A stretch of DNA of 43,856 nucleotides from a virus. The notes beneath the pieces are model-generated. The model did no database searches. It worked only from the letters and a program-made list of their open reading frames with translations, and was not told the DNA's origin. The stretch is from positions 1 through 43,856 of the IMG/VR virus record IMGVR_UViG_3300017971_000426. One strand, given 5' to 3'. The position numbers and the translations under genes are program-made. Positions 27,679 to 43,856 of the stretch are shown here, one piece after another (within the stretch, counting starts at the first letter, position 1; every line of letters starts with the position of its first letter).

Positions 27679-27883
27679 TCTAAAAAACAAAATTGTTAGT
27701 TACCAGGGATGCCTTTTCTCTTTCGAAGGCTGCCGTATAGAATATAGATATGATATCAACTATGTGTTTAGTAGAGTATTGCTGAGAGATTTGTTTATCC
27801 CCGGAAGGGTCGTAGAAACCGATAACATCAGGGAATTACAAGTGGTTTCTCCTATAGAATATATGAAGAGAGGTAAGGCGTGA
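27668..27883 (+). CDS. Small MK-tailed protein without barrel signature
   Basis: A 71-aa protein with a GTG start. It lacks K-x-G-D but has strand-like segments (NKIVSYQGCLFSFEGCRIEY). The tail is VVSPIEYMKRGKA. It is an example of the tail on a different N-terminal sequence. The tail codons include GAGAGG, the SD of the next gene, which overlaps by 4 nt. Confidence 0.6.
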   Translation: MVINLKNKIVSYQGCLFSFEGCRIEYRYDINYVFSRVLLRDLFIPGRVVETDNIRELQVVSPIEYMKRGKA

Positions 27884-28353
27884 ACATCTTTGTTACATAT
27901 TTAGACGCTCACAAGTCAGCTAGAGTACTGGACAACAAGCGAGTGATCAAAATGTGTCTAGAATCTGCTCAGTTGCTCTCTACCGCTATGCACGTTATGG
28001 GGGCTACTAATGCTCCCTATCGCCCCACTCATGTCAACCATCCTTGTGCAATCTGGACAAGGACTAACGCAGCTAACTACCTGTGGTTATTAAACCATTT
28101 CAGAGCCTTGTGCGATGAGTATAACTTTCGTTACGGTAAAACACATAAGTGTAAGCAATATTTGGAGATTTTCTATGCCGGCTATGCGTTCATGCCAGAG
28201 TCTAATGAAATCACTATGTTTCCTAACTGTACTAAATTCAAAAAAGAGCTCAATATATTCAAGGCTTACAGATTATGTCTAAAAGACAAGTGGGAAAATG
28301 ATAAGAGAAAGCCACAGTGGACTAATAGACAGAGACCGGGGTGGGCTAAGTGA
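27880..28353 (+). CDS. Probable DNA repair protein, often annotated pyrimidine dimer glycosylase
   Basis: A 157-aa protein with a GTG start. Its motifs MNIFVTYLDAHKSARVLDNK, VIKMCLESAQLLSTAMHVMG, RPTHVNHPCAIWTRTNAANY and HFRALCDEYNFRYGKTHK are recurrent in phage proteins annotated as pyrimidine dimer DNA glycosylase/endonuclease V-like. It does not resemble T4 endonuclease V closely by eye, so the enzyme activity is uncertain. The conserved His, Glu and Asn positions would suit a nucleic-acid enzyme. Confidence 0.65.
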   Translation: MNIFVTYLDAHKSARVLDNKRVIKMCLESAQLLSTAMHVMGATNAPYRPTHVNHPCAIWTRTNAANYLWLLNHFRALCDEYNFRYGKTHKCKQYLEIFYAGYAFMPESNEITMFPNCTKFKKELNIFKAYRLCLKDKWENDKRKPQWTNRQRPGWAK

Positions 28354-28667
28354 TTGTAAATGTTTACAGAATTTTGCCAGAGAAAAGATCGTGGGAAGTA
28401 CGATTTCTCTACTCTCTACCCGAGACAGAAAAAGAAAATAAAATGTATGTATTGACAGTGGGGGATGATATAAGTGAGCATTTAGCCAGAGTTTTTCTGA
28501 ACAATCCTCCTTTGTTATACCAAATAGAGGTTGAGTGCTTAACCGATTATCGACTAGATACGATCCGTACAATGCAGTTTAACCGTATGATAAATAAGGT
28601 AAAAAAAGAATTTGACAAGAGCGAATTAATTTGGTACGATCAATTAATAGGGAGGAAAAAACAATGA
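28350..28667 (+). CDS. 105-aa protein with internal MK-like motif
   Basis: It starts with GTG at 28350, overlapping the upstream stop by 4 nt. A beta-rich N-terminus (WEVRFLYSLPETEKENKMYV) is followed by DYRLDTIRTMQFNRMIN, which looks like an MK tail that continues for about 30 residues. Its end, VKKEFDKSELIWYDQLIGRK, is encoded by DNA holding a sigma-70-like promoter (28612-28640). Confidence 0.6.
   Translation: MIVNVYRILPEKRSWEVRFLYSLPETEKENKMYVLTVGDDISEHLARVFLNNPPLLYQIEVECLTDYRLDTIRTMQFNRMINKVKKEFDKSELIWYDQLIGRKKQ
28612..28640 (+). promoter_or_regulatory. Sigma-70-like promoter in the end of the 105-aa gene
   Basis: TTGACA (28612-28617), 17-bp spacer, TACGAT (28635-28640), ending 23 bp before the 28664 ATG. 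Confidence 0.6.
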
Positions 28668-28822
28668 CAGGAATAGAAGCATACTATCAGGCACTTACCT
28701 TTAAAAAGATGTGGATTAAGTTTCGTGACTATGGTATTCTCCATGATTGTGAGAAAGCCTTGCGCCATGCGAAGTTCTGTTACGAAATGTTTAAGAAATC
28801 CTACGAGTTGGCGGGTATTTAA
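28664..28822 (+). CDS. 52-aa helical protein
   Basis: The ATG at 28664 has an ideal SD (GGGAGGAAAAAACA). The product MTGIEAYYQALTFKKMWIKF, then HDCEKALRHAKFCYEMFKKS, looks like two helices with a regular spacing of aromatic and basic residues. Function unknown. Confidence 0.6.
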   Translation: MTGIEAYYQALTFKKMWIKFRDYGILHDCEKALRHAKFCYEMFKKSYELAGI

Positions 28823-29034
28823 TGAGCAAAACCTGTCAAATCAAAAATTGTTCTAAACACGCCAACCGGATTATAAGAGTTGGAGATGATTTGGTTTATT
28901 TGTGCCATGAGCATTATGATTTTATGGAAAAAGGTATTCGGGAGATCAACGAAAGAGTCAAAAACATGACTACCGAAGAAATGGAAGCTAGATTAAAAGA
29001 ACTGCAAGAGGAAGAGGATGAGCCAACCCATTGA
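28822..29034 (+). CDS. Small zinc-finger-like protein
   Basis: A 70-aa protein. Cysteines and histidines in KTCQIKNCSKHANR and LVYLCHEHYDFMEK suggest a zinc knuckle (C-x4-C...C-x-H). A charged helix follows (TTEEMEARLKELQEEEDE). It starts with a TAATG overlap and overlaps the next gene by 17 nt. Confidence 0.6.
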   Translation: MSKTCQIKNCSKHANRIIRVGDDLVYLCHEHYDFMEKGIREINERVKNMTTEEMEARLKELQEEEDEPTH

Positions 29035-29320
29035 ACAGAAATACTTTCCAGGGGATGAGGTGATGGTGTGGTGTTGGTACTGCGAATCATTTCACATTCC
29101 CGCCACTGTAACCAAATTAGTTAGTCAGGGAAATTGGGAACAGGAAGGGAATGATAATGTGTATCGCATAAAATTTTTAGACAACCAGCAACTTCCTCCT
29201 AGTTGCAAACGCTATTTAGATATCAATGGGGCCACTACCGAGGAACTTCTTAGACCCTCTACTATACAGCATATGAAAAATACTAGGAAAAATAAATTTG
29301 ACAAACCTGTTGACATTTGA
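29018..29320 (+). CDS. SH3/KOW-like small protein with MK tail
   Basis: A 100-aa protein. Barrel signature KYFPGDEVMVWCWYCESFHI, then strands NDNVYRIKFLDNQQLPP. The tail PSTIQHMKNTRKNKFDKPVDI is extended; its last codons overlap the -35 of a sigma-70-like promoter (29298-29326). Confidence 0.62.
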   Translation: MSQPIEQKYFPGDEVMVWCWYCESFHIPATVTKLVSQGNWEQEGNDNVYRIKFLDNQQLPPSCKRYLDINGATTEELLRPSTIQHMKNTRKNKFDKPVDI

Positions 29321-29326
29321 TAGAAT
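29298..29326 (+). promoter_or_regulatory. Sigma-70-like promoter at the end of the 100-aa gene
   Basis: TTGACA (29298-29303), 17-bp spacer, TAGAAT (29321-29326). A second TTGACA/TATGAT pair overlaps (29310-29336) with a 15-bp spacer. No good SD precedes the 29332 ATG, so the transcript may be nearly leaderless there. Confidence 0.6.
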
Positions 29327-29331
29327 GAAGT

Positions 29332-29502
29332 ATGATCAAGAAATCAGACATAAGCGAAGTTAAAGAGATCATTAGGAAAGCAATGGATGATGTGTATGGT
29401 TTTCCTGGTAATACTTCGCCAAAGAAGAAAAGATTTTTGGAATTAGCAGCAGACAAGCTGTACGAAAGGTTTAAGAAAGGTGGAGACAAACAACAAACAT
29501 AA
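29332..29502 (+). CDS. 56-aa basic helical protein
   Basis: The product is MIKKSDISEVKEIIRKAMDD, then VYGFPGNTSPKKKRFLELAA and DKLYERFKKGGDKQQT. It looks like two helices joined by a Gly-Pro turn. It lies immediately after a promoter-like sequence. No family recognised. Confidence 0.5.
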   Translation: MIKKSDISEVKEIIRKAMDDVYGFPGNTSPKKKRFLELAADKLYERFKKGGDKQQT

Positions 29503-29647
29503 ATGGCTAACCCATAGAAAGTTAGCTGAAAGGTTCAAGGCGCAGGGCTCAATCCATGTGGCTCGATATCATTATCAACAGGCTATTCTATACTTCCACG
29601 CCATGAATCTTGAAGAGGAAAGGAAGCGAATCAATGAAAATTATTAA
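29480..29647 (+). CDS. 55-aa helical protein with GTG start
   Basis: A GTG-initiated frame overlapping the previous gene by 23 nt and the next by 14 nt. It reads VETNNKHKWLTHRKLAERFK, then AQGSIHVARYHYQQAILYFH and AMNLEEERKRINENY. The regular amphipathic pattern and filled gap support a real gene, although the start is uncertain. Confidence 0.5.
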   Translation: METNNKHKWLTHRKLAERFKAQGSIHVARYHYQQAILYFHAMNLEEERKRINENY

Positions 29648-30077
29648 TCGCTGCATGGGTTGTGGGTCTACTCACTTTACTGTTGACGGTTCGGGCAACC
29701 ACCGCTGCCGCCACTGTGGTTATGTAATCATTGATAAAGAGCCCAAAACTTTCAAAAACAATTCTCAATGTCTGCTAGATATGATCAATGAAACTTTAGT
29801 AGATTTAGGGGAGACTGAGGACATAGACCATGAACCTCCTTTAATCATAGAAGAAAGTCCCTCCGTTCAGTCTCCCCCCTCCCCTTCCCCGGAGGAAGCA
29901 CAGGCTATTGAAAGGAACTATATCACTGGTAAGCAAATGACTTTTCGGTGCGCTAGCAATGACTGCTCGCACCATTTGAGTTTTGATCCAGTCAAAGTAA
30001 GATTGAGGGATGTACCTAAAACCTGCCGTCAATGTGGTGCGGCCATGATTCTAGGGAGGTCAAGAGATGGCGACTAG
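29634..30077 (+). CDS. Double zinc-ribbon protein
   Basis: A 147-aa protein from the ATG at 29634 (GGAAG SD); a TTG eight codons earlier is less likely. Zinc ribbon one: RCMGCGSTHFT with HRCRHCGYVI. Zinc ribbon two: RCASNDCSHH with KTCRQCGAAM. Between them lies a Pro/Ser-rich acidic linker (SPSVQSPPSPSPEEAQ). The layout suggests a transcription- or RNA-related adaptor, inferred from fold only. Confidence 0.68.
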   Translation: MKIINRCMGCGSTHFTVDGSGNHRCRHCGYVIIDKEPKTFKNNSQCLLDMINETLVDLGETEDIDHEPPLIIEESPSVQSPPSPSPEEAQAIERNYITGKQMTFRCASNDCSHHLSFDPVKVRLRDVPKTCRQCGAAMILGRSRDGD

Positions 30078-30252
30078 AAAACATCAAACCAAAGTTAAAC
30101 AGTTTGTTCATAACCAATGTGCTGAGTGTAATGCTGAGGCTGTGTCTACCTTAGTTGTGCCTCTCAAGGGAAAAAAGAAAATGATGTGGTGCTGCTCTAA
30201 CGGTCACCAAAATAACCATAGACGTTACACTGTCTCGGAGAAAAAGAATTGA
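30067..30252 (+). CDS. Small Cys-rich basic protein
   Basis: A 61-aa protein. CAEC and WCCSNGH in a Lys/His-rich chain (VHNQCAECNAEAV, MMWCCSNGHQNNHRR) suggest one zinc site. The SD is AGGGAGG. It overlaps neighbours by 11 and 4 nt. Confidence 0.6.
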   Translation: MATRKHQTKVKQFVHNQCAECNAEAVSTLVVPLKGKKKMMWCCSNGHQNNHRRYTVSEKKN

Positions 30253-30611
30253 TCAACCTCACCATAAGATCAGATAGTAAAGACCATTTCCACTTTGGTG
30301 GTATATGTCCCACTCAGTTATTCGCCAAGACCATAGATGGTTATTTATTGTATGGACGATTTAGGGGTAATCGGTTTTCTCTAGACATTACGAAACAGTG
30401 TGAGAAGTGTGCTTCCCGTACCTTGCGAAAAGGGGAGTGCGATTCCTGTGTCAAACGTAACAGCGAAACCTTGATCCGATTTAGGTACACTACCAAAGAA
30501 GGTGACGATGGTTATATAGAGTGGGATGAATTTTTAGAGGTCTGCCGCAACAACGGGATCAATATACGATTCTTCAATGCTGTTGACTACATGAAGGAGA
30601 ATAAGAAGTAA
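30249..30611 (+). CDS. Zinc-ribbon protein with MK tail, no barrel
   Basis: A 120-aa protein with a TTG start preceded by GGAG. The middle has CEKCASRTLRKGECDSC (two CxxC). It ends NAVDYMKENKK, a clean MK tail on a protein of clearly different type, which argues that the tail is a module. The stop overlaps the ATG of the 19-aa peptide gene. Confidence 0.65.
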   Translation: MINLTIRSDSKDHFHFGGICPTQLFAKTIDGYLLYGRFRGNRFSLDITKQCEKCASRTLRKGECDSCVKRNSETLIRFRYTTKEGDDGYIEWDEFLEVCRNNGINIRFFNAVDYMKENKK

Positions 30612-33195: not shown

Positions 33196-33231
33196 AAGGG
33201 ATGAACAGAGAAATTTAATGGAGGTTTGACA

Positions 33232-34353
33232 ATGGCTAGTATTAACAGAGTTAAGAAAATGATCAAAGCAGGTCGTGAGTCAGGCGTTTGCGTTTGGATA
33301 TGGGGCGACCACGGTAATGGTAAAAGTGAGTTGGTTCGACAGGTCACGGATGAGTTAGGGATTGATTTCATCGACATTCGCGTTGCCTTAACTGAGGCGG
33401 GTGATTGGATGGGTATTCCCTACGCCAACCCAGTTACTAAAGAAATGGATTTCTTGCCCTCCCCCTTTCTGCCCAAAGACCCCCAGAGTAAAGGTATCCT
33501 CTTCCTCGACGAACTCAACCGTGGTCGTCCCGATGTTCTGCAATCGGTTTTTCAGATTGCCTTGGATAAGAGGATTGGTACCCACTATGAGCTGCCGAAG
33601 GGCTGGTCTATTGTAGCTGCGGGTAACCCTGGCGACGCTGACTACCAAGTTACTGACATTGATCCTGCGCTGTTGGGCCGTTTCTGTCACGTTCACCTTA
33701 CTCCTACCAAAGATGAGTGGCTTGATTTTGCCTCTACAAGTGGGGTTAGGGATGATGTACGTGGGTTTATTCGAGATAACCCTAAGATGCTAGGCCAAGC
33801 TATCAAAAGTACTTCTATTGAGTCTTTGAAGGGTAACCCCAGAGGTTATGTGTTGTTAGCCAAGATGGTTGACGCTTTAGAAAACTTGGATAAGAATGAT
33901 CCACAAGGTAATTTTGTAGGAGATTGCATCTCTGATATTGCTCACGGCTTGGTAGGCTCTGCTGCCGCTGCGGAGTATGTCAACTATCGTAAAACCCAAT
34001 TCAAACGGATTGACGTTACTAAGATTCTTAACGAGTATCCAGTTATCCGTAAAGACGTTCTAAAGTCTGTTAAGACAGGGCGTGGTGATCTACAGAAAGA
34101 GGCTATTGAGGACCTCTTCAAAGATAAGAAACTGAATATTGATGAGGTGGTAGAGGATAAAACTAAGTTTAAGAATCTGTTGACGTTTCTTACTGATATT
34201 CCCGCTGACATGGGATATGTGGCTGCGGAAATTATTATGAACAACTATCGTAAACTCATGGATGCCATTCTCGCTTCCCAGAGCAAAGAAGCCAATAAGT
34301 TTTATGAGCTGGTTGTTGGTCTGGAAAGTATCGAGACTAGGGAGAAAAAGTAA
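33232..34353 (+). CDS. MoxR-like AAA+ ATPase
   Basis: A 373-aa protein from the ATG at 33232 (GGAGG SD; a TTG at 33226 is less likely). Walker A GDHGNGKS (25-32), Walker B ILFLDE (89-94), sensor-1 Asn in VAAGNPGD (132) and an Arg-finger-like LLGRF (150) are visible. The N-terminal part lacks the GAFTGA loop of sigma-54 activators. MoxR-type ATPases usually work with a VWA-domain partner; the next gene, overlapping by 1 nt, encodes one. Its substrate is unknown. Confidence 0.85.
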   Translation: MASINRVKKMIKAGRESGVCVWIWGDHGNGKSELVRQVTDELGIDFIDIRVALTEAGDWMGIPYANPVTKEMDFLPSPFLPKDPQSKGILFLDELNRGRPDVLQSVFQIALDKRIGTHYELPKGWSIVAAGNPGDADYQVTDIDPALLGRFCHVHLTPTKDEWLDFASTSGVRDDVRGFIRDNPKMLGQAIKSTSIESLKGNPRGYVLLAKMVDALENLDKNDPQGNFVGDCISDIAHGLVGSAAAAEYVNYRKTQFKRIDVTKILNEYPVIRKDVLKSVKTGRGDLQKEAIEDLFKDKKLNIDEVVEDKTKFKNLLTFLTDIPADMGYVAAEIIMNNYRKLMDAILASQSKEANKFYELVVGLESIETREKK

Positions 34354-35822
34354 TGGCAGACGAAAAGAAAAAAACTGCTAAGAAAGTAGCAGAGCAGCCA
34401 AAGCCGCCTACTCCCGAAGAGATTGCAGAGGCGAAGCGCAAGGTCGAAGAGGCTACGGAAACTGCCGAGTCGAATCTTGAAAGGGCTATCTTTCAGTTGC
34501 TAACAACGGAGCCATTCCTAGGGCACCTGATGCAACAATTAACGAGGCTCACAAGTTTGCAGATTCCTACCGCCTGTGTTTCAGTAGTAGATAACCGCTA
34601 CTCTCTTACTATCAATCCGTTCTTTTTTAATGAACTGGAAACGAAGGAGAGGGTAGCGGTGCTGAAACATGAACTTTGTCATTTGCTTAATGAGCACTTG
34701 CACAGAGGCCAAGACCGTGACCCTAAGATTTTCAATGTTGGCGCGGACATGGCTATTAACCAGTGGATTCAGAACCTACCTACTTTCGATCATGCTAAGG
34801 CAGTAGAAAAGTTAATGGAGTCGGGGCTAACCCAGGAAGAGGCTGAGGCTAAACTTCCCAAGCCCGACGCTAATGGTAGAGGCCAAACCTGCCTTTTGCC
34901 CAAAGACTATAACTTGCCTAATGACAAAACGGCTGAATGGTATTATGAAGCCATTATGAATGATCCAAACATGAAGGAGAAGTTTCAACAAAAGCAGGTC
35001 ATTCTTGACATGGAAAACGGGATGACTAACCTTACCCCCGAAGAGCAAAAACAGTTAGCCGAAGATATTAAAAACGGTAAAGTACAAGTAACTCCGGGGA
35101 GAGGAGATCATTCAGAGTGGGGTTCTACTGAAGGACAAACCAGAGAAGTGTTGGATGAGGAGTTGAAACGTATCATCCGAGAGAGCATGGAAAAAGCGGG
35201 TGATTCTTTTGGTAACCTCCCCGGTATGCTACAAGAGCAGATTAGGCAGTTTCTTACCACCAAAGTGAGTTGGAAAACTAAACTCAGAAGTTTTATCCAG
35301 CGGGCTACCCGCGTTATGCGAAAGAACTCAAGACAAAGGCCAAGCCGTAGGTATGGGGTATCTTTTCCAGGCCAAAAGTCGCAGTTCAAGTTAAATCTCT
35401 GTGTATTTATTGATGCCTCGGGTTCAATCGGAGAGGATGAGTCAAGAGTATTCGGGGGCGAGATAAATAGGCTCATGGATACTAAACTGGCCGACATTAC
35501 TTTGGTTTGGGGTGATACAACGATTCAGAAAGTAGAAAAATTAAATAAAAAGTTGGAGCCCGATAGGTTTGCGATGTATGGCCGAGGTGGTACAGATGCA
35601 GGTCCCTGGCTGAAATACATTGACGAAAATCACTATGACGCAGCGGTAATTTTGACAGATGGTTACTTTAGCTTCGACCTAAAGAAACCTAAAACTCTAT
35701 TGCTGTGGGCGTTGAGTGAAGGTGGTTATTCAGTGGATGATTTTAGGCGCAATGTACCTTTTGGTAAAGTAATTAAACTTGAATTAGATGAAAAAGCTAG
35801 GCGTCGGAGGTACCGTCGATGA
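34353..35822 (+). CDS. Putative metallopeptidase with VWA-like domain
   Basis: A 489-aa protein of the DUF2201 type (family recalled, not searched). The N-terminal region has VAVLKHELCHLLNEH, with HELCH at 106-110 and a following His115, a zincin motif. The C-terminal region has a VWA-like MIDAS: FIDASGSIG (Asp354-Ser358), Thr414 in RGGTDAG, and LTDG with Asp436. A Lys/Arg-rich C-terminus follows. The gene is coupled to the upstream AAA+ ATPase, so a substrate-remodelling pair is likely. Confidence 0.85.
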   Translation: MADEKKKTAKKVAEQPKPPTPEEIAEAKRKVEEATETAESNLERAIFQLLTTEPFLGHLMQQLTRLTSLQIPTACVSVVDNRYSLTINPFFFNELETKERVAVLKHELCHLLNEHLHRGQDRDPKIFNVGADMAINQWIQNLPTFDHAKAVEKLMESGLTQEEAEAKLPKPDANGRGQTCLLPKDYNLPNDKTAEWYYEAIMNDPNMKEKFQQKQVILDMENGMTNLTPEEQKQLAEDIKNGKVQVTPGRGDHSEWGSTEGQTREVLDEELKRIIRESMEKAGDSFGNLPGMLQEQIRQFLTTKVSWKTKLRSFIQRATRVMRKNSRQRPSRRYGVSFPGQKSQFKLNLCVFIDASGSIGEDESRVFGGEINRLMDTKLADITLVWGDTTIQKVEKLNKKLEPDRFAMYGRGGTDAGPWLKYIDENHYDAAVILTDGYFSFDLKKPKTLLLWALSEGGYSVDDFRRNVPFGKVIKLELDEKARRRRYRR

Positions 35823-36094
35823 GCGGTTTTAAGGTACCAGATAGCAAGGCTCCGAGAACTCTGGATTACCATGAGCTAGCCTTGAACTTCTTTCGATCCT
35901 ATATTATGCAAATGGGAGAGAGAAAGAAAAACGATGAAGAAATTAAGGCGTTCACTAGAAATCCAGGGCCAGAGACCTTTGGACTTAAACCTGATCCCAA
36001 CCGAGACAAGTTTTTTGAGATTATTCAACACCACTCTACTTTTGAAGAGAGAAAGAAGATTGTTGTCGAGTTGGCAAAGACAGGGAAAATATGA
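35819..36094 (+). CDS. 91-aa protein, third gene of the AAA/VWA cluster
   Basis: Its ATG overlaps the VWA stop by 4 nt (ATGA). The product has LNFFRSYIMQMGERKKNDEE and ends FEERKKIVVELAKTGKI, probably mostly helical. Position suggests a third component of the AAA-VWA module. Unknown family. Confidence 0.6.
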   Translation: MSGFKVPDSKAPRTLDYHELALNFFRSYIMQMGERKKNDEEIKAFTRNPGPETFGLKPDPNRDKFFEIIQHHSTFEERKKIVVELAKTGKI

Positions 36095-36249
36095 TTTATG
36101 AAATCTACTGTAAAGTTTGTGGAGAACGCCGAAAGATTGACCTTCCTAAAGAAGAGTTTAAGGGAGCACAGAAACTGTTTAAAGAGGCATCGGAAGTTTT
36201 AACCCACAAGTGTAGTGGCACTTATGAGTTGAGGGACCTCGGTTCCTAA
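36091..36249 (+). CDS. 52-aa zinc-binding protein, possibly 3'-truncated by frame change
   Basis: It starts MIYEIYCKVCGERRKIDLPK with CxxC and one further Cys (VLTHKCSGTYELRDLGS). A different frame immediately downstream encodes LTKEQKDRIKKEMDELIQQL then ENLNRSGN, which looks like the natural continuation. A sequencing error or frameshift could join the two (see findings). Confidence 0.5.
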   Translation: MIYEIYCKVCGERRKIDLPKEEFKGAQKLFKEASEVLTHKCSGTYELRDLGS

Positions 36250-36333
36250 CAAAGGAACAAAAGGACCGGATAAAAAAGGAAATGGATGAACTTATACAAC
36301 AATTAGAGAATTTAAATAGGTCTGGTAACTAAT

Positions 36334-36828
36334 ATGAAATATCGAATCATCGACCTGAGAGACAAGTCTATGGGGCAAGCGAAGCGGATAATGAAACGCT
36401 TGCTGCATAAGAAACGAAAAGGGAAGGATGATCCGTGGGTGAGGAGAAAACTTAAAACACCCCTTAAATTTTTGATTCCTTCGAAGGACAAAAAGAAGCG
36501 CACTATGTTTCAAGCCGAGAAGATCAAAAGCACCTGCCCCTATTGTGGAAGTAGGTTAGTAGAAACTGAGGTAGGTATAGTATGTAGTAGTGAAAATATG
36601 AGATATATTGCTCACGATATTATTTCTACCCTCCGCAGATATGGAGAAGAGCGAGCAGAAATGTTTATGAGCAAAAAGTCTCACCGATTCTATGATTATT
36701 ACAAGGCTGAAGGGGTTACCATGACTTGTGATTATGTACTGGGTAATGAGGAGAAAAGGTTTAGGATCAACAATAGACTTCTCAGGCCCGGTGTTGATAG
36801 AAAGAAAATATTTGGAGGAAAGAAATGA
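36334..36828 (+). CDS. Zinc-ribbon protein of unknown function
   Basis: A 164-aa protein. A basic N-terminal part (MGQAKRIMKRLLHKKRKGKD) is followed by CPYCGSRLVETEVGIVC, a zinc-ribbon start, then a helical and basic C-terminal half (SKKSHRFYDYYKAEGVTMTC). It overlaps the lipoprotein gene by 4 nt. Probably nucleic-acid-binding. Confidence 0.6.
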   Translation: MKYRIIDLRDKSMGQAKRIMKRLLHKKRKGKDDPWVRRKLKTPLKFLIPSKDKKKRTMFQAEKIKSTCPYCGSRLVETEVGIVCSSENMRYIAHDIISTLRRYGEERAEMFMSKKSHRFYDYYKAEGVTMTCDYVLGNEEKRFRINNRLLRPGVDRKKIFGGKK

Positions 36829-37148
36829 GATTGACTGCATTAGTCCTTTTGACCTCGCTGCTTATTGCTGGACTGTCCTTAATTGTGACAAGCTGCGGTG
36901 AACCGAAATACTACCAACCTTTTGATTGTGAAATAGGATTCAAATTAGTTGAATACCGGATACGTTTTAACAAAGGAGATTATGAAGTAACTGCTGAAGA
37001 TCAAGCGCACGGATTCTTTGATGTTGTCTATAGAGCAAACCATGAGAGTTTTGCTACGGAGTTAGTGCATCACATTTTGCCAGTCAATTGCCGTACTCAT
37101 GGAGGCAAGGCAATCTCTCTGGAACAAGTAGAAATGGAGACTGAATAA
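36825..37148 (+). CDS. Probable lipoprotein
   Basis: A 107-aa protein with a typical signal peptide (MRLTALVLLTSLLIAGLSLI) and lipobox VTSC, so Cys24 would be the lipidated residue after signal peptidase II cleavage. The mature part is small and charged. Roles for such phage lipoproteins include superinfection exclusion and outer spanins; the small size fits both. SD GGAGGAAAGA. Confidence 0.75.
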   Translation: MRLTALVLLTSLLIAGLSLIVTSCGEPKYYQPFDCEIGFKLVEYRIRFNKGDYEVTAEDQAHGFFDVVYRANHESFATELVHHILPVNCRTHGGKAISLEQVEMETE

Positions 37149-37336
37149 TGAATTGTGTAAATTGTAACAAGAAATTTACTCCCGCTGAAATCAAAAAGCG
37201 CAAAGCGGTCTGTTGTGACCTGTGTTTAGATCAAGCGGTGGAGTACGACCAGGTTTATAAAGATCATGGAGAAGAAATTGCTATTCAACACTGGTGTTTT
37301 ATGAGGGAGTCTACTGGACATGAAGTCAAAGGTTGA
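37148..37336 (+). CDS. Small Cys-rich protein
   Basis: A 62-aa protein. MNCVNCNKKFTPAEIKKRK and CCDLCLDQAVEYD give two CxxC pairs, a plausible zinc-binding treble clef. TAATG overlap upstream; overlaps the next gene by 17 nt. Confidence 0.6.
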   Translation: MNCVNCNKKFTPAEIKKRKAVCCDLCLDQAVEYDQVYKDHGEEIAIQHWCFMRESTGHEVKG

Positions 37337-37538
37337 AAAAGAAAAAGTCACTGATGAGTCTCAATTTCTCCCTGTACCGTGGAGCGATGAGCACAGCGTA
37401 GGCAGTATAGCTAATGTACTTATAGAGTTAGCGAGACAGATGGGATTTGATATTATCAGAGTTAGTGACAACGGCAGGTTTTGGTTTGAGGTCAAACCCA
37501 ATAATGCGGTAACCTATATGAAAGTCAAAAAGAAATGA
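37320..37538 (+). CDS. MK-tailed small protein without barrel signature
   Basis: A 72-aa protein. A Lys/Glu-rich start is followed by VGSIANVLIELARQMGFDII, helical, then RVSDNGRFWFEVKPNN. The tail is NAVTYMKVKKK. The next ATG overlaps by 4 nt. The GGAG SD is nine bases from the ATG, inside the upstream gene. Confidence 0.6.
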   Translation: MKSKVEKEKVTDESQFLPVPWSDEHSVGSIANVLIELARQMGFDIIRVSDNGRFWFEVKPNNAVTYMKVKKK

Positions 37539-37747
37539 AATACAAAGTGGGAGATAGGGTTAAGGTAAGGACTTACTGCGAAGGGTTCAAAGAAGTTCAC
37601 CGCGTATCGACGATAGTGGATATAGGAACTCTCAGTAATGGAGATGTTGTCGCCTATATGTTAGAAGATGACGACGTTACTTTTATTATGCCCGAGAATG
37701 TACTGGGGTTAGACGTTATAGAAAATATGAAGAGGAATAAGAAGTGA
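37535..37747 (+). CDS. SH3/KOW-like small protein with MK tail
   Basis: A 70-aa protein, close to the family average. Barrel signature MKYKVGDRVKVRTYCEGFKE, then VAYMLEDDDVTFIMPENV. The tail is GLDVIENMKRNKK. The tail DNA AAGAGGAATAAGAA precedes the GTG of the next gene. Confidence 0.68.
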   Translation: MKYKVGDRVKVRTYCEGFKEVHRVSTIVDIGTLSNGDVVAYMLEDDDVTFIMPENVLGLDVIENMKRNKK

Positions 37748-37968
37748 AATTTAGGTTGGGGGATAAAGTTAAAGTGAGTGCATGGCCCACCCCTATATCT
37801 GGTGTTGTGGTGAATTTAATCCCCTCTGTATGGACCTTTGGGCAAACAAATTACCTTATAAAATTCGTCAGTAGACAGGAAGAAGGAAAAATAGAATATG
37901 TCGAGTGTGAGGATAATGTCCTTTCTTTGGATATAACTGCGAACATGAAACGAGGCAAGAATGTTTAA
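37744..37968 (+). CDS. SH3/KOW-like small protein with MK tail
   Basis: A 74-aa protein with a GTG start. Barrel signature MKFRLGDKVKVSAWPTPISG, then strands YLIKFVSRQEEGKIEYVE. The tail is SLDITANMKRGKNV. It is the direct tandem neighbour of the 37535 gene and similar to it in layout, suggesting local duplication. It overlaps the ligase gene by 8 nt. Confidence 0.66.
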   Translation: MKFRLGDKVKVSAWPTPISGVVVNLIPSVWTFGQTNYLIKFVSRQEEGKIEYVECEDNVLSLDITANMKRGKNV

Positions 37969-39265
37969 GGCATTAGAAAAGATTGCCAAGACCAACAGTA
38001 ACAAAGAGAAAGCAGAGATTCTCAAGAACCACGATAGTGTGGAACTGAGAGAATATCTCGATATTGGACTAAACATATACAGGGTGTACTATGTCAACAA
38101 AATGCCAAAAGAAAGAATTGAGGGCGTCGAGTCCTTTCCTATCCCCGGTAAAGGATTCACCAAGTTTAAATTTCTTGTCAAGGCTTTGGAGCAGCGCCAG
38201 ATATCAGGCCATATTGCACTTAACACGATCCATGACGTATTCAGTACGTTTACGAAACAAGAACGGAAATGGTTTACTGCTGCGTTGGCGAAAAAAGCTA
38301 TCGGCGTTGGACCTGCGACTGTCAACGCTGCTTTTGGAAAAAATACTATCCCGTCCTTCAAGGTGATGTTGGCGGATAACAAACAACCTGACCTAGATAA
38401 GATTACCTATCCCAAATGGATACAACCTAAGATTGATGGGTTTAGGGCTGTGTGGATTCCCAACGTAGGTTTTATTGGACGTAACGGTAAACCTATACGT
38501 AACTCTAAACTGAACACTCACTTTAAGGGACTGGCCTACGAAGTCAAAGGCTACGTGTTAGACGGCGAGCTTGATTCAACCGAGTGGCATGGACAAGCAG
38601 ATTCATTCAACAAAATTACCTCAATCTTAAATTCGGAGGATAAAGATGTACCAGAACATATCCGATACACTGTCTACGACTGTATACCCCTCGCGGATTG
38701 GACAGCACAAGCTCACGCACAGGGATATGCGAAGAGAATGGAAGAGGTACCTGAAATTATACTTAACGTGTCCGAGCACTACCCCACCACGGAAGATTGG
38801 TTTAGCGATGATGCTTCCTTCCGAGAATCCTATTCTCCCGTAGTGGAGATTCCATCCATACCTATTAAAAATAGGAAAGAACTTGATAAGTGGTATAAAT
38901 ATTATTTGAACAGCGGGTATGAGGGTATTATGATTAAAGACCTTAAAGCCCCATACCATTGGAAGCGTGTATCTGTCAATTCACAGGTTATGCTCAAGCT
39001 AAAGCCATCTATAACCCACGATTTAAAAGTCACGGGGTTCGAGGAAGGTGAAGGTAAGTTTAAAGGCATGTTGGGCAAGCTATTGGTGGATTTCAACGGT
39101 GTAGAAGTAGGAGTAGGCACAGGCCTTACTGAGGCTAATCGGGTCAAAATATGGTCCAATAAGAAGGCCTATTTGGGTCAAATAGCTGAGGTTAAGGGTA
39201 TGGAAGTAACCGCAGATGGCTCTATCCGTCACCCTGTTTTTGTGCGGTGGAGGAAGGACAAATGA
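37961..39265 (+). CDS. ATP-dependent DNA ligase
   Basis: A 434-aa protein. The adenylation site KIDG is at 157-160 (Lys157 would be adenylated). Further nucleotidyltransferase motifs: DGEL (201-204), EGIMIK (321-326) and MLKLKP (344-349). An N-terminal helical domain precedes and an OB-fold-like domain follows (KLLVDFNGVEVGVGTGL). It seals DNA nicks during replication or repair. It is followed by the radical SAM and RtcB genes. Confidence 0.9.
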   Translation: MFKALEKIAKTNSNKEKAEILKNHDSVELREYLDIGLNIYRVYYVNKMPKERIEGVESFPIPGKGFTKFKFLVKALEQRQISGHIALNTIHDVFSTFTKQERKWFTAALAKKAIGVGPATVNAAFGKNTIPSFKVMLADNKQPDLDKITYPKWIQPKIDGFRAVWIPNVGFIGRNGKPIRNSKLNTHFKGLAYEVKGYVLDGELDSTEWHGQADSFNKITSILNSEDKDVPEHIRYTVYDCIPLADWTAQAHAQGYAKRMEEVPEIILNVSEHYPTTEDWFSDDASFRESYSPVVEIPSIPIKNRKELDKWYKYYLNSGYEGIMIKDLKAPYHWKRVSVNSQVMLKLKPSITHDLKVTGFEEGEGKFKGMLGKLLVDFNGVEVGVGTGLTEANRVKIWSNKKAYLGQIAEVKGMEVTADGSIRHPVFVRWRKDK

Positions 39266-40107
39266 AAGCACAAAACTTATCAATCTGCGTTCCATACAAC
39301 GGTTGTGACAAGAATTGTCCTTATTGTATAAGCAAGATGACAGGTTATACTGAGGGGCAGCACGGTCAGTTGATGGATAGAAATGTCAATAAGGTCAGAC
39401 AGTTAGCTAAGGCCTGTCAGGTCAGCAGCGTGTTGATTACTGGCAAGGGTGAACCAATGTTATCAAGGCCTTACGTGGAAAGCATGATACAGGCTTTCAG
39501 AGACTTCCCTGTGGAGTTGCAGACCAATGGAAAGTTGTTGCTGCAAGACGTAAAAGGGCATGGTATCGTACTAAATTCGCTCCAAGAAAGGGGTTTAGAC
39601 ACTTTGGCCCTATCTGTTGACTGTTTTGCTGATATAGCGGCTCACAAGCCTCTATTTAGCGCCGCACAGGATTTAGGTTTGACCAACAGAATCACGGTAA
39701 ATCTGCTAGATACTACTTTGCAACACTCGTTTGCAGACTACGTATCAGCCTGTAAACATAATAATATTCAACAATTGTCTTTTAGAAGTATAACCGTTCC
39801 CAACTACGTGCAATTTGAGGTGGGCAGCAAGGCAGCCCTTACTGTAGATTGGATCAACAAGAATGTGGATAAAAATTCAGAAGCTTTGTTTTTGAACCTA
39901 ATGAGGGATTCTCTGAGCAGTAAGGGAAAGGTTTTGCGGCAGTTACCTTACGGGGCCACATTATTCGATTATGAAGGTCTATCAGTCACTTATTTCGATT
40001 ACTGTATACAAGATAAATCAGGAGAGGATGATATTCGTAGTTTAATCTTTATGGATGATGGACACGTCTATACTAACTGGGCTTCTACCGCTTCGAGGTT
40101 GTTCTAA
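39262..40107 (+). CDS. Radical SAM protein
   Basis: A 281-aa protein from the ATG at 39262 (GGAGGAAGGAC upstream; a GTG five codons earlier is less likely). The [4Fe-4S] motif CDKNCPYC holds Cys15, Cys19 and Cys22 (C-x3-C-x2-C). The SAM-binding GEP motif appears in ITGKGEPML and a later strand in ELQTNGKLLLQD. Its reaction is unknown; some phage radical SAM enzymes act in base or tRNA modification. It lies between a DNA ligase and, two genes later, RtcB. Confidence 0.8.
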   Translation: MKAQNLSICVPYNGCDKNCPYCISKMTGYTEGQHGQLMDRNVNKVRQLAKACQVSSVLITGKGEPMLSRPYVESMIQAFRDFPVELQTNGKLLLQDVKGHGIVLNSLQERGLDTLALSVDCFADIAAHKPLFSAAQDLGLTNRITVNLLDTTLQHSFADYVSACKHNNIQQLSFRSITVPNYVQFEVGSKAALTVDWINKNVDKNSEALFLNLMRDSLSSKGKVLRQLPYGATLFDYEGLSVTYFDYCIQDKSGEDDIRSLIFMDDGHVYTNWASTASRLF

Positions 40108-40283
40108 TGAAGTGCGTAATGTGTCATAAAGAATTAGAACAGATAGAAATTGAGTTCTTTCACAGCGGGACGCATAAATCATATAAAGGCTTTATGGTTT
40201 TTGATACCAAAAAACAACACTATGAGTGGGTTTGTGGAAAACGATGTGTAAAGAAATTCGAGAAAAACAATGGCGATAATTAG
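40107..40283 (+). CDS. 58-aa Cys-rich protein
   Basis: It starts on the preceding stop (TAATG) and reads MKCVMCHKELEQIEIEFFHS, then QHYEWVCGKRCVKKFEKNNG. Two Cys pairs (C-x2-C and C-x3-C) suggest one zinc site. It overlaps the next gene by 14 nt. Confidence 0.6.
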   Translation: MKCVMCHKELEQIEIEFFHSGTHKSYKGFMVFDTKKQHYEWVCGKRCVKKFEKNNGDN

Positions 40284-40521
40284 ACCAAAATACGGTATCA
40301 ACGAGATAGTTAAAGTGCGCCGCACGTACTTCGACGACTGCATGCGGGAGACACACAAGTTAAAAACAGCCAGAATCGTAGATATGGGAACTGAGTGGTG
40401 TGGTCCCATTGTGGGCTTTAAATACTGGATTAGATTTGGAAATAACAGAGAGGTGGAGGTGTGGGAAGTGGATATCGTCGGCATAGACACCATCGCAACA
40501 ATGAAGGAGAGTAAGAAATGA
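40270..40521 (+). CDS. SH3-like small protein with MK tail
   Basis: An 83-aa protein. It starts MAIIRPKYGINEIVKVRRTY, a degenerate barrel signature (no G-D). The tail GIDTIATMKESKK has acidic Glu within it. The AAGGAGAG in the tail codons is the SD of the next gene, whose ATG overlaps by 4 nt. Confidence 0.62.
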   Translation: MAIIRPKYGINEIVKVRRTYFDDCMRETHKLKTARIVDMGTEWCGPIVGFKYWIRFGNNREVEVWEVDIVGIDTIATMKESKK

Positions 40522-40979
40522 AATTATCCGAATACAAAAATATTACCCAATTCTTGAAAGATAATCCTGACTTTCGTTTTAGTGTCGGAGAAGTGGGATT
40601 TGGAAGGCCCTGTCTGGGTATTTTATATGAAGGCAATTATGTAGATTACCACATATACTCAGATGATGGTAATTACGAAACTATAGCCGAACATACTGTT
40701 GCCTATAGTCAGGCCCCTGAAAATGCTTATCACAAACATTCGTGCTTGGCCGTTCTTATGCACCCTGCCGATTACGATATAGGTCCTTCGGATAAAGATA
40801 AGCATAAGGCTCTGGCTGAGTTGGATGAATGGTTAGGGCATATTATTGAAGCAGGATACAGAGTGCGGGACTATAGAGAAAGTAAAAATAGTTTGGGAGG
40901 CTTTTTTGGTAATCGACGGATATTAAAAGCCATAGTCGATTCGGACGCAGTAGATTATATGAAGAGGAATAAGAAGTGA
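40518..40979 (+). CDS. 153-aa MK-tailed protein without barrel
   Basis: Its body is mixed alpha/beta (NPDFRFSVGEVGFGRPCLGI, then DDGNYETIAEHTVAYSQAPE and HKALAELDEWLGHIIEAGYR). No family recognised. It ends DSDAVDYMKRNKK, nearly identical to the tail of the 30249 protein, whose body differs completely. Tail DNA and a GTG start of RtcB overlap. Confidence 0.66.
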   Translation: MKLSEYKNITQFLKDNPDFRFSVGEVGFGRPCLGILYEGNYVDYHIYSDDGNYETIAEHTVAYSQAPENAYHKHSCLAVLMHPADYDIGPSDKDKHKALAELDEWLGHIIEAGYRVRDYRESKNSLGGFFGNRRILKAIVDSDAVDYMKRNKK

Positions 40980-42169
40980 AAATCATAACTTCAGAAAAGA
41001 AACCTATTAAGAGTTGGTGTAACTACCCGGAATCAGGAGCTCTTGAACAAGCCAAGGATTTAGCTAACTTACCTTTCCTGTTCAAACACGTTGCTTTAAT
41101 GCCTGATACACACCAAGGCTATGGTATGCCTATAGGTGGAGTAATAGCCTGTAAGGATGTTATTATCCCCAACGCTGTTGGTGTGGATATCGGTTGTGGT
41201 ATGGCTGCGGTGAAAACTAGTCTTACGGATATACCCACAGAAGGTATAAAGAAAATTATGTCCTTGATAAGACAGGCTGTTCCGGTAGGTTTTAAACACC
41301 ACGCAGGAGAACAGGATGCACGTCTAATGCCCCGAGAAAGATATGACGGCTTTAATGGAGGTTTTGTATTCTGTGAATATCCTATAATCTACGAAGAATA
41401 TCGCTCAGCCCTCAAGCAATTGGGAACCTTGGGTGGAGGAAACCACTTCATTGAAATCCAGAAGGGCAGCGACGGCTATATCTGGTTTATGGTCCACTCC
41501 GGCTCACGTAACCTGGGGTATAAAGTAGCCAAACATTACAACGAGGAAGCACAAATGTTGTGTGCCAAGTGGCACTCCAATATACCTAAGCCTAAAGGAG
41601 CTGATGGTCTAGCCTTTCTGCCCCTAGATACCGCAGAGGGGAGGCTCTACCGGAGATCAATGGAGTATTGTCTACAATTTGCTAAAGCTAATCGAGATTT
41701 AATGATCCAACGAATCAAAGAATCTTTTTGTTCTGTCTTAGAGGTGGAATTTACTGAATATATTAATATTCATCACAACTATGCCACTATGGAGAATCAT
41801 TATGGAGCCAACGTTATGGTCCATCGTAAAGGAGCTACTTCGGCTAAGAAGGGCGAGCTTGGTATTATTCCAGGCTCACAGGGTACGAGTTCCTACATTG
41901 TTCGAGGGAAAGGTAATCTAGAAAGTTTTATGAGCTGTAGTCATGGGGCTGGCCGCCAGATGAGTAGGAAGGCTGCAAGGACAGGGCTTGACTTAGACGC
42001 AGAAATCGCTCTGCTAGATGGCAAGGGGGTCATCCACTCTATACGCAATGAGAAAGACCTGGAGGAAGCGCCTACCGCCTACAAAGACATAGACATCGTA
42101 ATGGAAGAACAGCAAGACTTAGTTGATATTGTTGTGAAATTAGAACCTCTGGCAGTTATTAAAGGCTAA
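40976..42169 (+). CDS. rtcB: RtcB RNA ligase
   Basis: A 397-aa protein with all RtcB hallmarks: GVDIGCGM (69-76, Asp71 and Cys74 as metal ligands), GGGNHFIEI (His157), HSGSRN (His174), IHHNYA (His266), and SHGAGR (His323, expected GMP-linked residue). RtcB joins 3'-phosphate or cyclic phosphate ends to 5'-OH ends using GTP and Mn2+. A phage copy could repair tRNAs cut by host anticodon nucleases; this is inference. GTG start overlaps the upstream stop by 4 nt. Confidence 0.95.
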   Translation: MKIITSEKKPIKSWCNYPESGALEQAKDLANLPFLFKHVALMPDTHQGYGMPIGGVIACKDVIIPNAVGVDIGCGMAAVKTSLTDIPTEGIKKIMSLIRQAVPVGFKHHAGEQDARLMPRERYDGFNGGFVFCEYPIIYEEYRSALKQLGTLGGGNHFIEIQKGSDGYIWFMVHSGSRNLGYKVAKHYNEEAQMLCAKWHSNIPKPKGADGLAFLPLDTAEGRLYRRSMEYCLQFAKANRDLMIQRIKESFCSVLEVEFTEYINIHHNYATMENHYGANVMVHRKGATSAKKGELGIIPGSQGTSSYIVRGKGNLESFMSCSHGAGRQMSRKAARTGLDLDAEIALLDGKGVIHSIRNEKDLEEAPTAYKDIDIVMEEQQDLVDIVVKLEPLAVIKG

Positions 42170-42237
42170 TGAACAATTTTTCTAATAAAAATTATTTACC
42201 AAATGGTAAGTACGAGCCTTACAATAGGAGACCATAA
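42169..42237 (+). CDS. 22-aa micro-peptide, translationally linked
   Basis: MNNFSNKNYLPNGKYEPYNR RP starts on the RtcB stop (TAATG) and ends on the next gene's ATG (TAATG). The frame is tightly fitted, but such short frames can occur by chance. Low confidence; it might serve only as a translational link. Confidence 0.35.
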   Translation: MNNFSNKNYLPNGKYEPYNRRP

Positions 42238-42671
42238 TGGCAAAATTCTGGGAAAAAGTGAGAGAGACCTATCAGGTAAGAGCCGAGGATAAGCCCAAGA
42301 AGGCTATCTCTCTAGCAACTATCCGAAATTATTATAAAGGTAGGATCGAGCGAGACTTTACGAAAGGATTGAAAGCAGAACAGCGAGATGATTATAGCTA
42401 TATGCTCTTTATCCCCTGTAAGAGTGGTGAAATCTACCTGCACTCAGAAACGGAAAATTTGCTTGGCGTCTTTGTTAAACCTACCGCGTCAGGTGGTAAG
42501 AGAAACGCCCACAGAGCACCATTGAAAAACATAGGGGCTCAGAAGGTCATGGACTGCCAATGGGAAGAAAAATGGATTCTAGCGGCTGAGAAGCTAGATT
42601 TAGCTTGTGAGATAATGGGAGCCTATAAAACAAAGAAATATACAAGAAAAAGAGGAGAAAATGTCAAATAG
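42237..42671 (+). CDS. 144-aa basic protein
   Basis: A Lys/Arg-rich protein with YSYMLFIPCKSGEIYLHSET, a strand-turn pattern, and a C-terminal helical part (EEKWILAAEKLDLACEIMGA). SD AGGAG. It overlaps the next gene by 11 nt. No family recognised. Confidence 0.6.
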   Translation: MAKFWEKVRETYQVRAEDKPKKAISLATIRNYYKGRIERDFTKGLKAEQRDDYSYMLFIPCKSGEIYLHSETENLLGVFVKPTASGGKRNAHRAPLKNIGAQKVMDCQWEEKWILAAEKLDLACEIMGAYKTKKYTRKRGENVK

Positions 42672-42951
42672 AACAATAACTTGTAGTGCCTGGGGGTGTA
42701 ATAAGTCTCTTTCTACTGAGAAACGAGAGGTATACTGCCTCCGTATTGAGAGAGATGGACACAGGTTTGTGTGTAAAAAGCACTTTGACCTAGCCAATTC
42801 AGGCAAAGTAAACGACCTATCGGAGCTTATTTATGGACCAAGGACAACCAAAAAGAGGCGACATGGTAAAACTGGTGGACGGCGTAGACGTTCTACACGA
42901 AATCCGAGCCGGAAATCAGGTACTGGTAGTTCCTCAAAAGACCGTGGATAA
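42661..42951 (+). CDS. Cys/His-containing basic protein, unusual overlap with the next gene
   Basis: A 96-aa protein. Residues 1-60 look normal (CSAWGCNKSLS and FVCKKHFDLANSGK). The last ~37 residues (GPRTTKKRRHGKTGGRRRRS) overlap the next gene out of frame for 119 nt. They are Arg/Ser/Gly-rich, as chance translation of such a region would be. The real end may be earlier in an ancestral form. Confidence 0.6.
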   Translation: MSNRTITCSAWGCNKSLSTEKREVYCLRIERDGHRFVCKKHFDLANSGKVNDLSELIYGPRTTKKRRHGKTGGRRRRSTRNPSRKSGTGSSSKDRG

Positions 42952-43081
42952 CTTGAAAGGTAAGAGTTTACGGGTAGGTGGAGTTCTATTTGTATTAGAT
43001 GCTCCCGATGGTGAGACATATCTAGCTACCGGGGGAGATATCACGCTCGATGTGATAAACACTATGAGGATTAAGAAATGA
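42833..43081 (+). CDS. SH3/KOW-like small protein with MK tail
   Basis: An 82-aa protein with an SD (GGAG) eight bases before the ATG. Barrel signature MDQGQPKRGDMVKLVDGVDV. The tail TLDVINTMRIKK is a shorter form. The start at 42833 is needed to keep the barrel signature, which makes the long overlap with 42661 real. Confidence 0.66.
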   Translation: MDQGQPKRGDMVKLVDGVDVLHEIRAGNQVLVVPQKTVDNLKGKSLRVGGVLFVLDAPDGETYLATGGDITLDVINTMRIKK

Positions 43082-43323
43082 AATACAAGACGTTCTATTT
43101 GTCTATAGACGGTAAAGTGTCGCGGCATAAGATGCGAGGAACGATGATGGCTGGTTTTGGTATGTTGTGGGAGGACCAAGTAATAGAGGCTAAAACCCAT
43201 GAAGGAAAGACCTTTATCTTTGTATTTGAAGATGTTAAGGTAGGGAGCCATGAAGCCAGTACTTTGGTGACCTTAGAAGCCGGCGATTTCATTGATAGAA
43301 TTGATGTGGTAACTAAAACATGA
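43078..43323 (+). CDS. 81-aa beta-rich protein
   Basis: Starts MKYKTFYLSIDGKVSRHKMR, then EAKTHEGKTFIFVFEDVKVG, ending DRIDVVTKT. The tail lacks the Met-Lys core, so I do not count it as MK-tailed. It overlaps neighbours by 4 nt on each side. Confidence 0.55.
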   Translation: MKYKTFYLSIDGKVSRHKMRGTMMAGFGMLWEDQVIEAKTHEGKTFIFVFEDVKVGSHEASTLVTLEAGDFIDRIDVVTKT

Positions 43324-43694
43324 AAGACCCTAAATTTAAGATTGGTGACGTAGTTAATACAAAGTCAGGTGGAAGTGGTATTGTCTGTGCTATCTTAGAT
43401 AGTTCAGATATTATAAATAATGTCATAGATAATACTAAGTTAGCGAAATCCGCCGCAGATTTGATGGATGAGATACTCGATGACTGTGACTGGTTCTGTC
43501 CAATGTATCACATAGTATGGAGAGATGAGGAAGATAATTGGATGGTCTCTACAGTGGATGAAAAAGAGCTGACTTTAAATACGACTAAAACTATGATGGT
43601 CAATAAGTCTCCCGAATTTTTAGAGAGGCTTACGGCGTTGGGGAAAGAAATTAAAAACCCCACGGAGGATGATAATGAAGATCAAAGTAAATGA
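43320..43694 (+). CDS. SH3/KOW-like protein with internal MK-like motif
   Basis: A 124-aa protein. Barrel signature FKIGDVVNTKSGGSGIVCAI, a helical insert (AKSAADLMDEILDDCDWFCP) and ELTLNTTKTMMVNKSPEFLE, a degenerate MK motif that continues into a Glu/Asp-rich end. It overlaps the last, partial gene by 20 nt. Confidence 0.58.
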   Translation: MKDPKFKIGDVVNTKSGGSGIVCAILDSSDIINNVIDNTKLAKSAADLMDEILDDCDWFCPMYHIVWRDEEDNWMVSTVDEKELTLNTTKTMMVNKSPEFLERLTALGKEIKNPTEDDNEDQSK

Positions 43695-43856
43695 TATTGT
43701 GATCCCAAAAATGGCTGTAGCTAGAGTGGTGGAAATTAAGAAAACCAAGGTTGTTTTTGAACGGTATGATAGCAAAGGAAAAAGAAAGGTTTTTGAGTGG
43801 ACCAAAGACCATGCTGAAACTAGAGGTGTAAGTTTAGATAAACTAGTGGATGAAAA
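43675..43856 (+). CDS. Partial SH3-like small protein at the right edge
   Basis: The frame MKIKVNDIVIPKMAVARVVE, then KTKVVFERYDSKGKRKVFEW, has a KOW-like start (K-V-N-D-I-V) and stays open to the window edge, so the C-terminus is not seen. It has a GGAGG upstream and overlaps the previous gene by 20 nt. Confidence 0.55.
   Translation, partial: MKIKVNDIVIPKMAVARVVEIKKTKVVFERYDSKGKRKVFEWTKDHAETRGVSLDKLVDE

Follow-up and report, generated by a model that had tools for sequence, protein, structure and literature searches.

Among the known ways in which bacteria defend themselves against phages are the destruction of nicotinamide adenine dinucleotide (NAD) and the cleavage of tRNA. In the available part of the survey PMC7824862, RtcB is treated as RNA repair in phages and phage NAD synthesis as counter-defence, and radical SAM proteins in phages are already known as such, as the available part of PMC2853527 documents. 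The locus described here lies in the IMG/VR virus record IMGVR_UViG_3300017971_000426 (43,856 bases, analysed whole and hereafter called the window), where a DNA ligase, a radical SAM enzyme and an RtcB RNA ligase are encoded in one row of overlapping genes between positions 37961 and 42169. We propose that this cluster is part of a phage repair island serving counter-defence, in which RtcB mends tRNA and the radical SAM enzyme, tied to NAD salvage, acts on a pyridine nucleotide; this reading is given a probability of roughly 0.45, a little short of an even chance. The genes concerned are as follows.

37535-37747 (+): small basic protein, starts KYKVGDRVKV, common tail ENMKRNKK
37744-37968 (+): small paralogue, starts KFRLGDKVKV, tail ANMKRGKNV, overlaps the ligase start
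37961-39265 (+): ATP-dependent DNA ligase with adenylation (KIDG) and OB domains (Pfam, PHROG, solved ligases)
39262-40107 (+): radical SAM enzyme, 281 aa, single C-x3-C-x2-C cluster site
40107-40283 (+): 58-aa protein with CxxC and CxxxC pairs, zinc-ribbon-like by eye
40270-40521 (+): 83-aa small protein, common tail ATMKESKK
40518-40979 (+): 153-aa protein without the small-protein domain, same tail type (DYMKRNKK)
40976-42169 (+): RtcB 3'-phosphate/5'-OH RNA ligase (Pfam, PHROG, alignment to Pyrococcus horikoshii RtcB)

In the proposed mechanism, the cluster would form part of a repair, that is counter-defence, island in which RtcB would rejoin RNA, the most likely substrate being tRNA that host nucleases have cut in the anticodon loop. 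The radical SAM enzyme, with one [4Fe-4S] cluster and SAM, would generate a 5'-deoxyadenosyl radical, which would act on a small substrate of the pyridine-nucleotide type (a nicotinate or nicotinamide nucleotide, NAD or a breakdown product) and thereby help to keep or remodel NAD during infection. The window copy would have the same role as its relatives. To place the radical SAM enzyme on the NAD side of the phage arsenal is the most economical reading of the evidence given below.

The RtcB of the window is a full-length member of its family, with a Pfam score of 371.1 bits (cut-off 27) over profile positions 1-426 of 426, and its Cys/His blocks align with those of P. horikoshii RtcB (1uc2), which we take to be the metal/GMP site. 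RtcB matches occur in 659 of 50,697 phage records, every one of them below 60 percent identity. An earlier note on this DNA had suggested that RtcB could counter host tRNA cleavage, which fits the family and the phage RNA repair published in the accessible part of PMC7824862.

The radical SAM enzyme scores 38 bits on Pfam PF04055 (cut-off 29.5) and carries the motif CDKNCPYC, the C-x3-C-x2-C site that the earlier note had read correctly, and it is thus a member of the superfamily. Its start is likely the ATG at 39262 rather than the GTG at 39247, because three of four aligned relatives begin there. Among 46 aligned members, two of the cluster cysteines are invariant and the third is at least 90 percent conserved; one further cysteine is nearly invariant, yet not kept in three archaeal rows, and a second is invariant in eight rows of clade 2. 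In the annotated phage collection the only relative was a distant one, from an uncultured phage of 735 kb that is listed under two accessions, and a scan of viral contigs with the window enzyme alone gave six pattern-matching stretches with no confirmed relative among them. Relatives were recovered with a two-row alignment as the query, and many others came from further alignment-guided scans of such contigs; the working set comprises 51 virus records, 50 besides the window, all of which match the family profile. In the literature searched, which left subscription papers and preprints outside its scope, we found neither a description of this family nor a link between such an enzyme, NAD and RtcB.

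The family is present in phages, archaea and, rarely, bacteria. Clade 1, which holds the window enzyme, has 35-46 percent identity to it and clade 2 about 21-27 percent, and a third small phage set (L033-L037 and L039; 24-29 percent for the five other than L036) groups with archaeal members. A genome scan gave 28 confirmed loci, six of which were studied in detail: L041-L043 from bacterial metagenome-assembled genomes (MAGs), with 43-45 percent identity, and L044-L046, with 25-28 percent, from archaea that by name presumably belong to the DPANN group. The remaining 22 (L047-L068), most of them short, incomplete matches from Bacilli and Clostridia, were left out, and L016, L017 and L099 were excluded as partial matches only. 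Few genomes in the phyla of two of the bacterial MAGs have the clade 1 form (2/395 and 1/195 at E <= 1e-30, the MAGs included), and 17 of 279 genomes in the phylum of L046 match at E <= 1e-20. On the tree, from which L075, L077 and L082 were left out, clades 1 and 2 as well as the archaeal group contain members with NAD neighbours, and the state changes at least ten times.

Focusing on the archaeal members, an NAD-pathway gene lies within 6 kb of the radical SAM gene at 12 of 20 loci (L132 and L133 being near-duplicates), and Pfam confirmed this context at three of the 12, with ten proteins checked. The gene order is nicotinate phosphoribosyltransferase (NAPRTase)-nicotinamidase-radical SAM-aminotransferase-NAD synthase-NadM at L125, NAPRTase-nicotinamidase-NAD synthase-radical SAM-NadM at L129 and NAPRTase-radical SAM-nicotinamidase-NAD synthase-NadM at L132, where the name NadM is based on a local profile, with a cytidylyltransferase-like Pfam match in addition at L129. 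At L044 and L046 the radical SAM gene is followed by an aminotransferase, an isochorismatase-like protein (by eye, with no Pfam match) and, further on, NAD synthase or a protein with a quinolinate phosphoribosyltransferase domain, and at L045 NAPRTase is divergent from the radical SAM gene. Eight archaeal loci are without an NAD gene, seven of them (L134-L140) on long branches. An aminotransferase-like gene stands directly after the archaeal radical SAM gene at L044, L045, L123, L125, L126, L127 and L128; it could share the pathway of the enzyme, and tblastn at E <= 1e-4 gave no counterpart in the phage loci.

Both RNA-repair and NAD sets are found in three phage islands. RtcB is followed after 4.6 kb by the radical SAM gene and then directly by NAPRTase, NUDIX and nicotinamidase genes in L023; L083 contains a T4-type RNA ligase, the radical SAM gene, RNA_ligase, RtcB, a NUDIX protein with a NadM-like local match and a NAMPT-type NAPRTase; and in L145 (record G031) RtcB lies 9 bases downstream of the radical SAM gene, with NAD synthase upstream. 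A Pfam census of 146 of the 477 listed neighbour open reading frames (ORFs; those of 205 aa or more on the plus strand, no farther than 4 kb away) at 43 loci, with L003, L031, L040, L075, L077, L082 and L096 left out, was topped, among the best 25 of 113 families, by NAPRTase with five, followed by RNA_ligase, isochorismatase/nicotinamidase and metallophosphatase with four each and by RtcB, PRPP synthetase, NAD synthase and GIY-YIG with three each. The two-member families include T4-type RNA ligase, RlaP, glycosyltransferases, D12-type methylase, integrase, sigma factor regions and AAA. Near clade 2 enzymes, an RlaP-family protein was seen at L013 (5872-6756), and a protein at L009 (11431-13647) has by eye the look of a kinase-phosphatase RNA end-healing enzyme.

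For the neighbourhood statistics, RtcB, RNA ligase, RlaP (an RNA repair polymerase family), DNA ligase, NAPRTase and NAD synthase were placed on whole contigs together with ribonucleotide reductase as a control family, and the observed distances were compared with random radical SAM positions on the same contigs. Six near-duplicates (G009, G019, G027, G031, G033 and G036) were removed, so that 45 of 51 records were retained; RNA_ligase matches in G006 and G016, which are DNA ligase places, were dropped, as were matches below cut-off for RNA_ligase, DNA ligase and NAD synthase. RtcB, matched in 18 of the 51 records, lies within 5 kb of the radical SAM gene on 6/15 non-redundant RtcB-bearing contigs (expected 1.17, p 0.0003) and, with the window excluded, on 5/14 (expected 0.84, p 0.0009). 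The eight pairs within 10 kb are on the same strand, and the gap between the matched stretches is 71-127 bases in G012, G031 and G033. NAPRTase, present in 17 of 51 records, lies within 3 kb on 5/14 non-redundant contigs (expected 0.67, p 0.0001). RNA_ligase is nominally close (4/14 within 3 kb, p 0.0135; p 0.055 at 5 kb), DNA ligase and RlaP lie near the radical SAM gene no more often than expected, and the ribonucleotide reductase control is flat and not significant. Random positions could overlap the hit in the 6/15 RtcB, RNA_ligase, RlaP and DNA ligase tests and were barred from doing so in the 5/14 RtcB, NAPRTase and NAD synthase tests. After correction by a factor of 21 (seven families, three distances), RtcB without the window (about 0.02) and NAPRTase (about 0.003) survive. 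Of the eight non-redundant contigs with both RtcB and NAPRTase, only two have them no more than 10 kb apart, and therefore the nearness of the radical SAM gene to each is not a mere by-product of their own clustering.

The earlier note had treated the three enzymes as one functional set, and the part of it that concerns the radical SAM enzyme and RtcB is supported, in that the two recur together across diverse phages; the DNA ligase does not share in this. The ligase is a sound assignment (DNA_ligase_A_M 50.2 bits, cut-off 26.2; PHROG ATP-dependent DNA ligase at E 7.1e-92), with adenylation and OB domains, a KxDG motif and matches to solved DNA ligase structures. Because DNA ligase is not enriched near the radical SAM family, it is probably a bystander having no step in common with the rest of the cluster.

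The AlphaFold2 model of the radical SAM enzyme, built with the 46 aligned members, has a pLDDT of 94.4 and a pTM of 0.91. When the model was compared by VIA-align, ten viperin-type entries came first (Z 18.6-19.5, 225-227 residues aligned), the best with Z 19.5 over 227 residues, followed by SuiB and tetraether synthase (both Z 18.0), MoaA (16.7-16.8) and another viperin entry (16.6). The 46-member profile against PDB sequences likewise found viperins best (E 3.4e-12) and MoaA second (2.6e-10), with the viperin matches stopping near position 180 of 285, and the viral fold library returned general radical SAM rows, several without a name. These comparisons suggest that the enzyme is likely to have a nucleotide-type fold. 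The viperin label is not earned, the window enzyme scoring 29.6 bits against the curated NCBIfam cut-off of 180, and the chemistry is what fold and context together suggest; a common fold is no proof of function.

Several results weigh against the proposed role in NAD metabolism. The likeness to viperins is less marked for the window's own clade: Foldseek against the PDB ranked MoaA first (E 2.9e-8), with viperins and others next; a profile of five clade 1 members found a NifB entry first (E 0.00045) and viperin after it (0.0009); the window sequence alone matched only RlmN, at E 0.64; and the MoaA model is matched at E <= 0.001 by 26 of the 46 members, the viperin model by 13. NAPRTase was chosen for testing after the census of the same loci, among seven families and three distances, and NAD synthase is not significantly close in phages (p 0.34 at 3 kb). 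An NAD gene lies within 6 kb of the radical SAM gene in only eight of 45 phage rows, some of the loci behind the other 37 stopping at contig ends. The window itself, possibly a fragment, has no recognised NAPRTase, NAD synthase or other NAD gene in its 43.9 kb, and the closest bacterial relatives (L041-L043 and L144) gave no NAD or RtcB match to local profiles in 11-21 kb. Moreover, nearness to RtcB and NAPRTase need not mean a common pathway, because both kinds of gene collect in the host-takeover regions of phages.

The earlier note had suggested that the radical SAM enzyme modifies nucleic acid, which is not the best-supported reading in view of the archaeal NAD operons, the census topped by NAPRTase and a predicted fold close to that of small-nucleotide enzymes. 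In one form of that suggestion, the enzyme would modify tRNA or RNA and work directly with RtcB, for example by marking mended tRNA against recutting by a host nuclease. The enrichment of RtcB beside it, down to the gaps of about a hundred bases given above, the nominal closeness of RNA_ligase and the weak match to RlmN, an RNA-modifying radical SAM enzyme, speak for this; however, archaeal members often stand beside NAD genes, neither Pfam nor NCBIfam finds an RNA-binding domain in the window enzyme, and RlmN is outranked by viperin and MoaA in both family profile and fold, so that we consider direct RNA modification unlikely. We hold it to be about equally improbable that the genes have no relation beyond being neighbours in a crowded middle-gene region and that each acts by itself. 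Clustering of phage repair and metabolic genes is common, most phage rows are without an NAD gene nearby, and DNA ligase, RlaP and NAD synthase are not enriched, as unrelated neighbours would lead one to expect, but RtcB and NAPRTase are enriched against whole-contig permutation where the control is flat, and these two are themselves seldom close on the contigs that hold both.

A viperin-type nucleotide dehydratase, making chain-terminating ribonucleotides against host transcription or competing phages, would agree with the ten top structure rows, with the best PDB matches of the family profile and with the 13 members that match the prokaryotic viperin model, whereas the score of the window enzyme far below the curated cut-off, the end of the sequence matches well before the end of the profile and the position of SuiB and tetraether synthase within about 1.5 Z units of the best viperin make such an activity quite improbable. 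A queuosine/7-deazaguanine-type DNA modification was rejected as a candidate, the radical SAM enzyme giving only weak partial QueE matches, and no queuosine or 7-deazaguanine genes were found among the other window proteins in the PHROG scan (30 proteins scanned in all).

The small proteins of the cluster share a C-terminal tail. The 'MK tail' of the earlier note is real and wider than first described: a tail of the type D-x-I-x-Y-M-K-x-x-K-K, with a pattern of about D-x-[IV]-x-[YN]-M-[KR]-x-x-K-K, ends 16 of the 90 called genes of the window, on both strands; 2000 shuffles gave 0.38 on average and never more than four, the pattern having been defined after the tails were viewed. The tailed genes lie in three regions.

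18924-20952 (-): tailed genes, partly unrelated small proteins
25946-30611 (+): tailed genes, partly unrelated small proteins
37320-40979 (+): tailed genes, partly unrelated small proteins

With the tails removed, eight of 17 proteins (the 16 and that at 42833) have in common a match at E < 1e-4 to one small-domain profile, and five of the eight are its seeds; those at 30249 and 40518 do not match it, and that at 37320 is without any match. The tail often contains a possible ribosome-binding site for the next overlapping gene, which may explain part of its basic end and not the conserved residues that precede it; the tail is perhaps a targeting or packaging signal, or partly an embedded ribosome-binding site. 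A degenerate DNA search of viral contigs gave four stretches with one match each, which look like chance. That the radical SAM enzyme is a RiPP-like peptide maturase for the adjoining tailed proteins is the least probable reading and was rejected: one tail common to many small proteins and the high rank of the peptide maturase SuiB point that way, but the extra cysteines are too few for the auxiliary clusters of SPASM/twitch maturases, and the tail also occurs far from the enzyme on both strands, and its pattern is present in only one of 1791 ORFs at 50 radical SAM loci of other records. In L003 and L011, from large uncultured phages, a recurrent MNNLK-type N-terminus and a DPYGEENW-type element are seen on different proteins; these short motifs are reminiscent of phage capsid-targeting peptides.

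With regard to the arrangement of the locus, the ORFs of the three enzymes are intact, and the description of the cluster as coupled is fair, because neighbours from 37961 onward overlap by 1 to 14 bases each: four bases between ligase and radical SAM gene, one between the latter and the zinc-like gene, 14 between this and the 83-aa gene, and four each for the 83-aa/153-aa and 153-aa/RtcB pairs. A zinc-like small protein had also been noted, and the two cysteine pairs of the 58-aa protein agree with this; it has no Pfam match and one weak PHROG match of unknown function (E 0.005), and the 153-aa protein has neither a Pfam nor a PHROG match. The window gives matches to both a major head protein and a large terminase, which mark it as coming from a tailed phage. 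Up to about 25.3 kb most of its long ORFs are read from the minus strand, and after that point from the plus strand; positions 34000-43856 as a DNA query had no match among the phage records, and no tRNA genes or Rfam families were found in the window. Adjoining the strand switch point, 24434-25312 (-) strongly matches the PHROG 7245 anti-restriction protein (E 2.9e-81). At 33226-35822 (+), a MoxR-type ATPase (PHROG 'ATPase') precedes a protein that has a HELCH metallopeptidase-like motif and a region judged by eye to be vWA-like; the PHROG label of the second protein, 'HNH endonuclease', looks mistaken, and the pair resembles the MoxR-vWA-peptidase pair that the available part of PMC7824862 proposes for virion assembly.

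Returning to the repair island with an NAD-tied radical SAM enzyme, its relatives recur beside phage answers to both arms of defence and also in archaeal NAD operons, and the family thus points to an enzymatic step absent from the map of the NAD pathway, with a short list of candidate substrates. It is doubtful, though worth stating, that archaeal operons and phage islands share one unrecognised radical SAM reaction by which a pyridine nucleotide is turned into, or restored to, a form of NAD, with RtcB alongside. If this were true, the enzyme would keep NAD usable in phages under NAD-destroying host defences, and the accompanying RtcB would undo the tRNA-cutting arm of the same defences.

In conclusion, the locus can be compared with five known systems. 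The Campylobacter phages CP220 and CPt10 carry 11 and 12 radical SAM proteins, which the accessible part of PMC2853527 describes as metabolic or low-oxygen adaptations, with no link to NAD or RtcB there. With phage RtcB-type RNA repair the window shares a full-length RtcB, whereas the main text of the surveys PMC9503650 and PMC7824862 is without the term radical SAM. With phage NAD reconstitution and salvage (NARP1 and the NAPRTase/NAMPT sets) the islands of the relatives share NAPRTase/NAMPT, nicotinamidase, NUDIX and NAD synthase, whereas a radical SAM step is not described in the available parts of PMC9503650, PMC7824862 and PMC12774641. MoaA (GTP 3',8-cyclase), which also acts on a nucleotide, resembles the enzyme as the first Foldseek row and the second-best sequence match among solved structures, although the window enzyme reaches only 37.8 of 284 bits on the MoaA model. 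The viperins, or SAM-dependent nucleotide dehydratases (SANDs), share the single C-x3-C-x2-C site, a similar length and the top structure rows; the sequence match to them covers only about the first 60 percent of the enzyme, at a score far under that of a curated viperin, and the context in which this family is found is that of NAD salvage and RNA repair.

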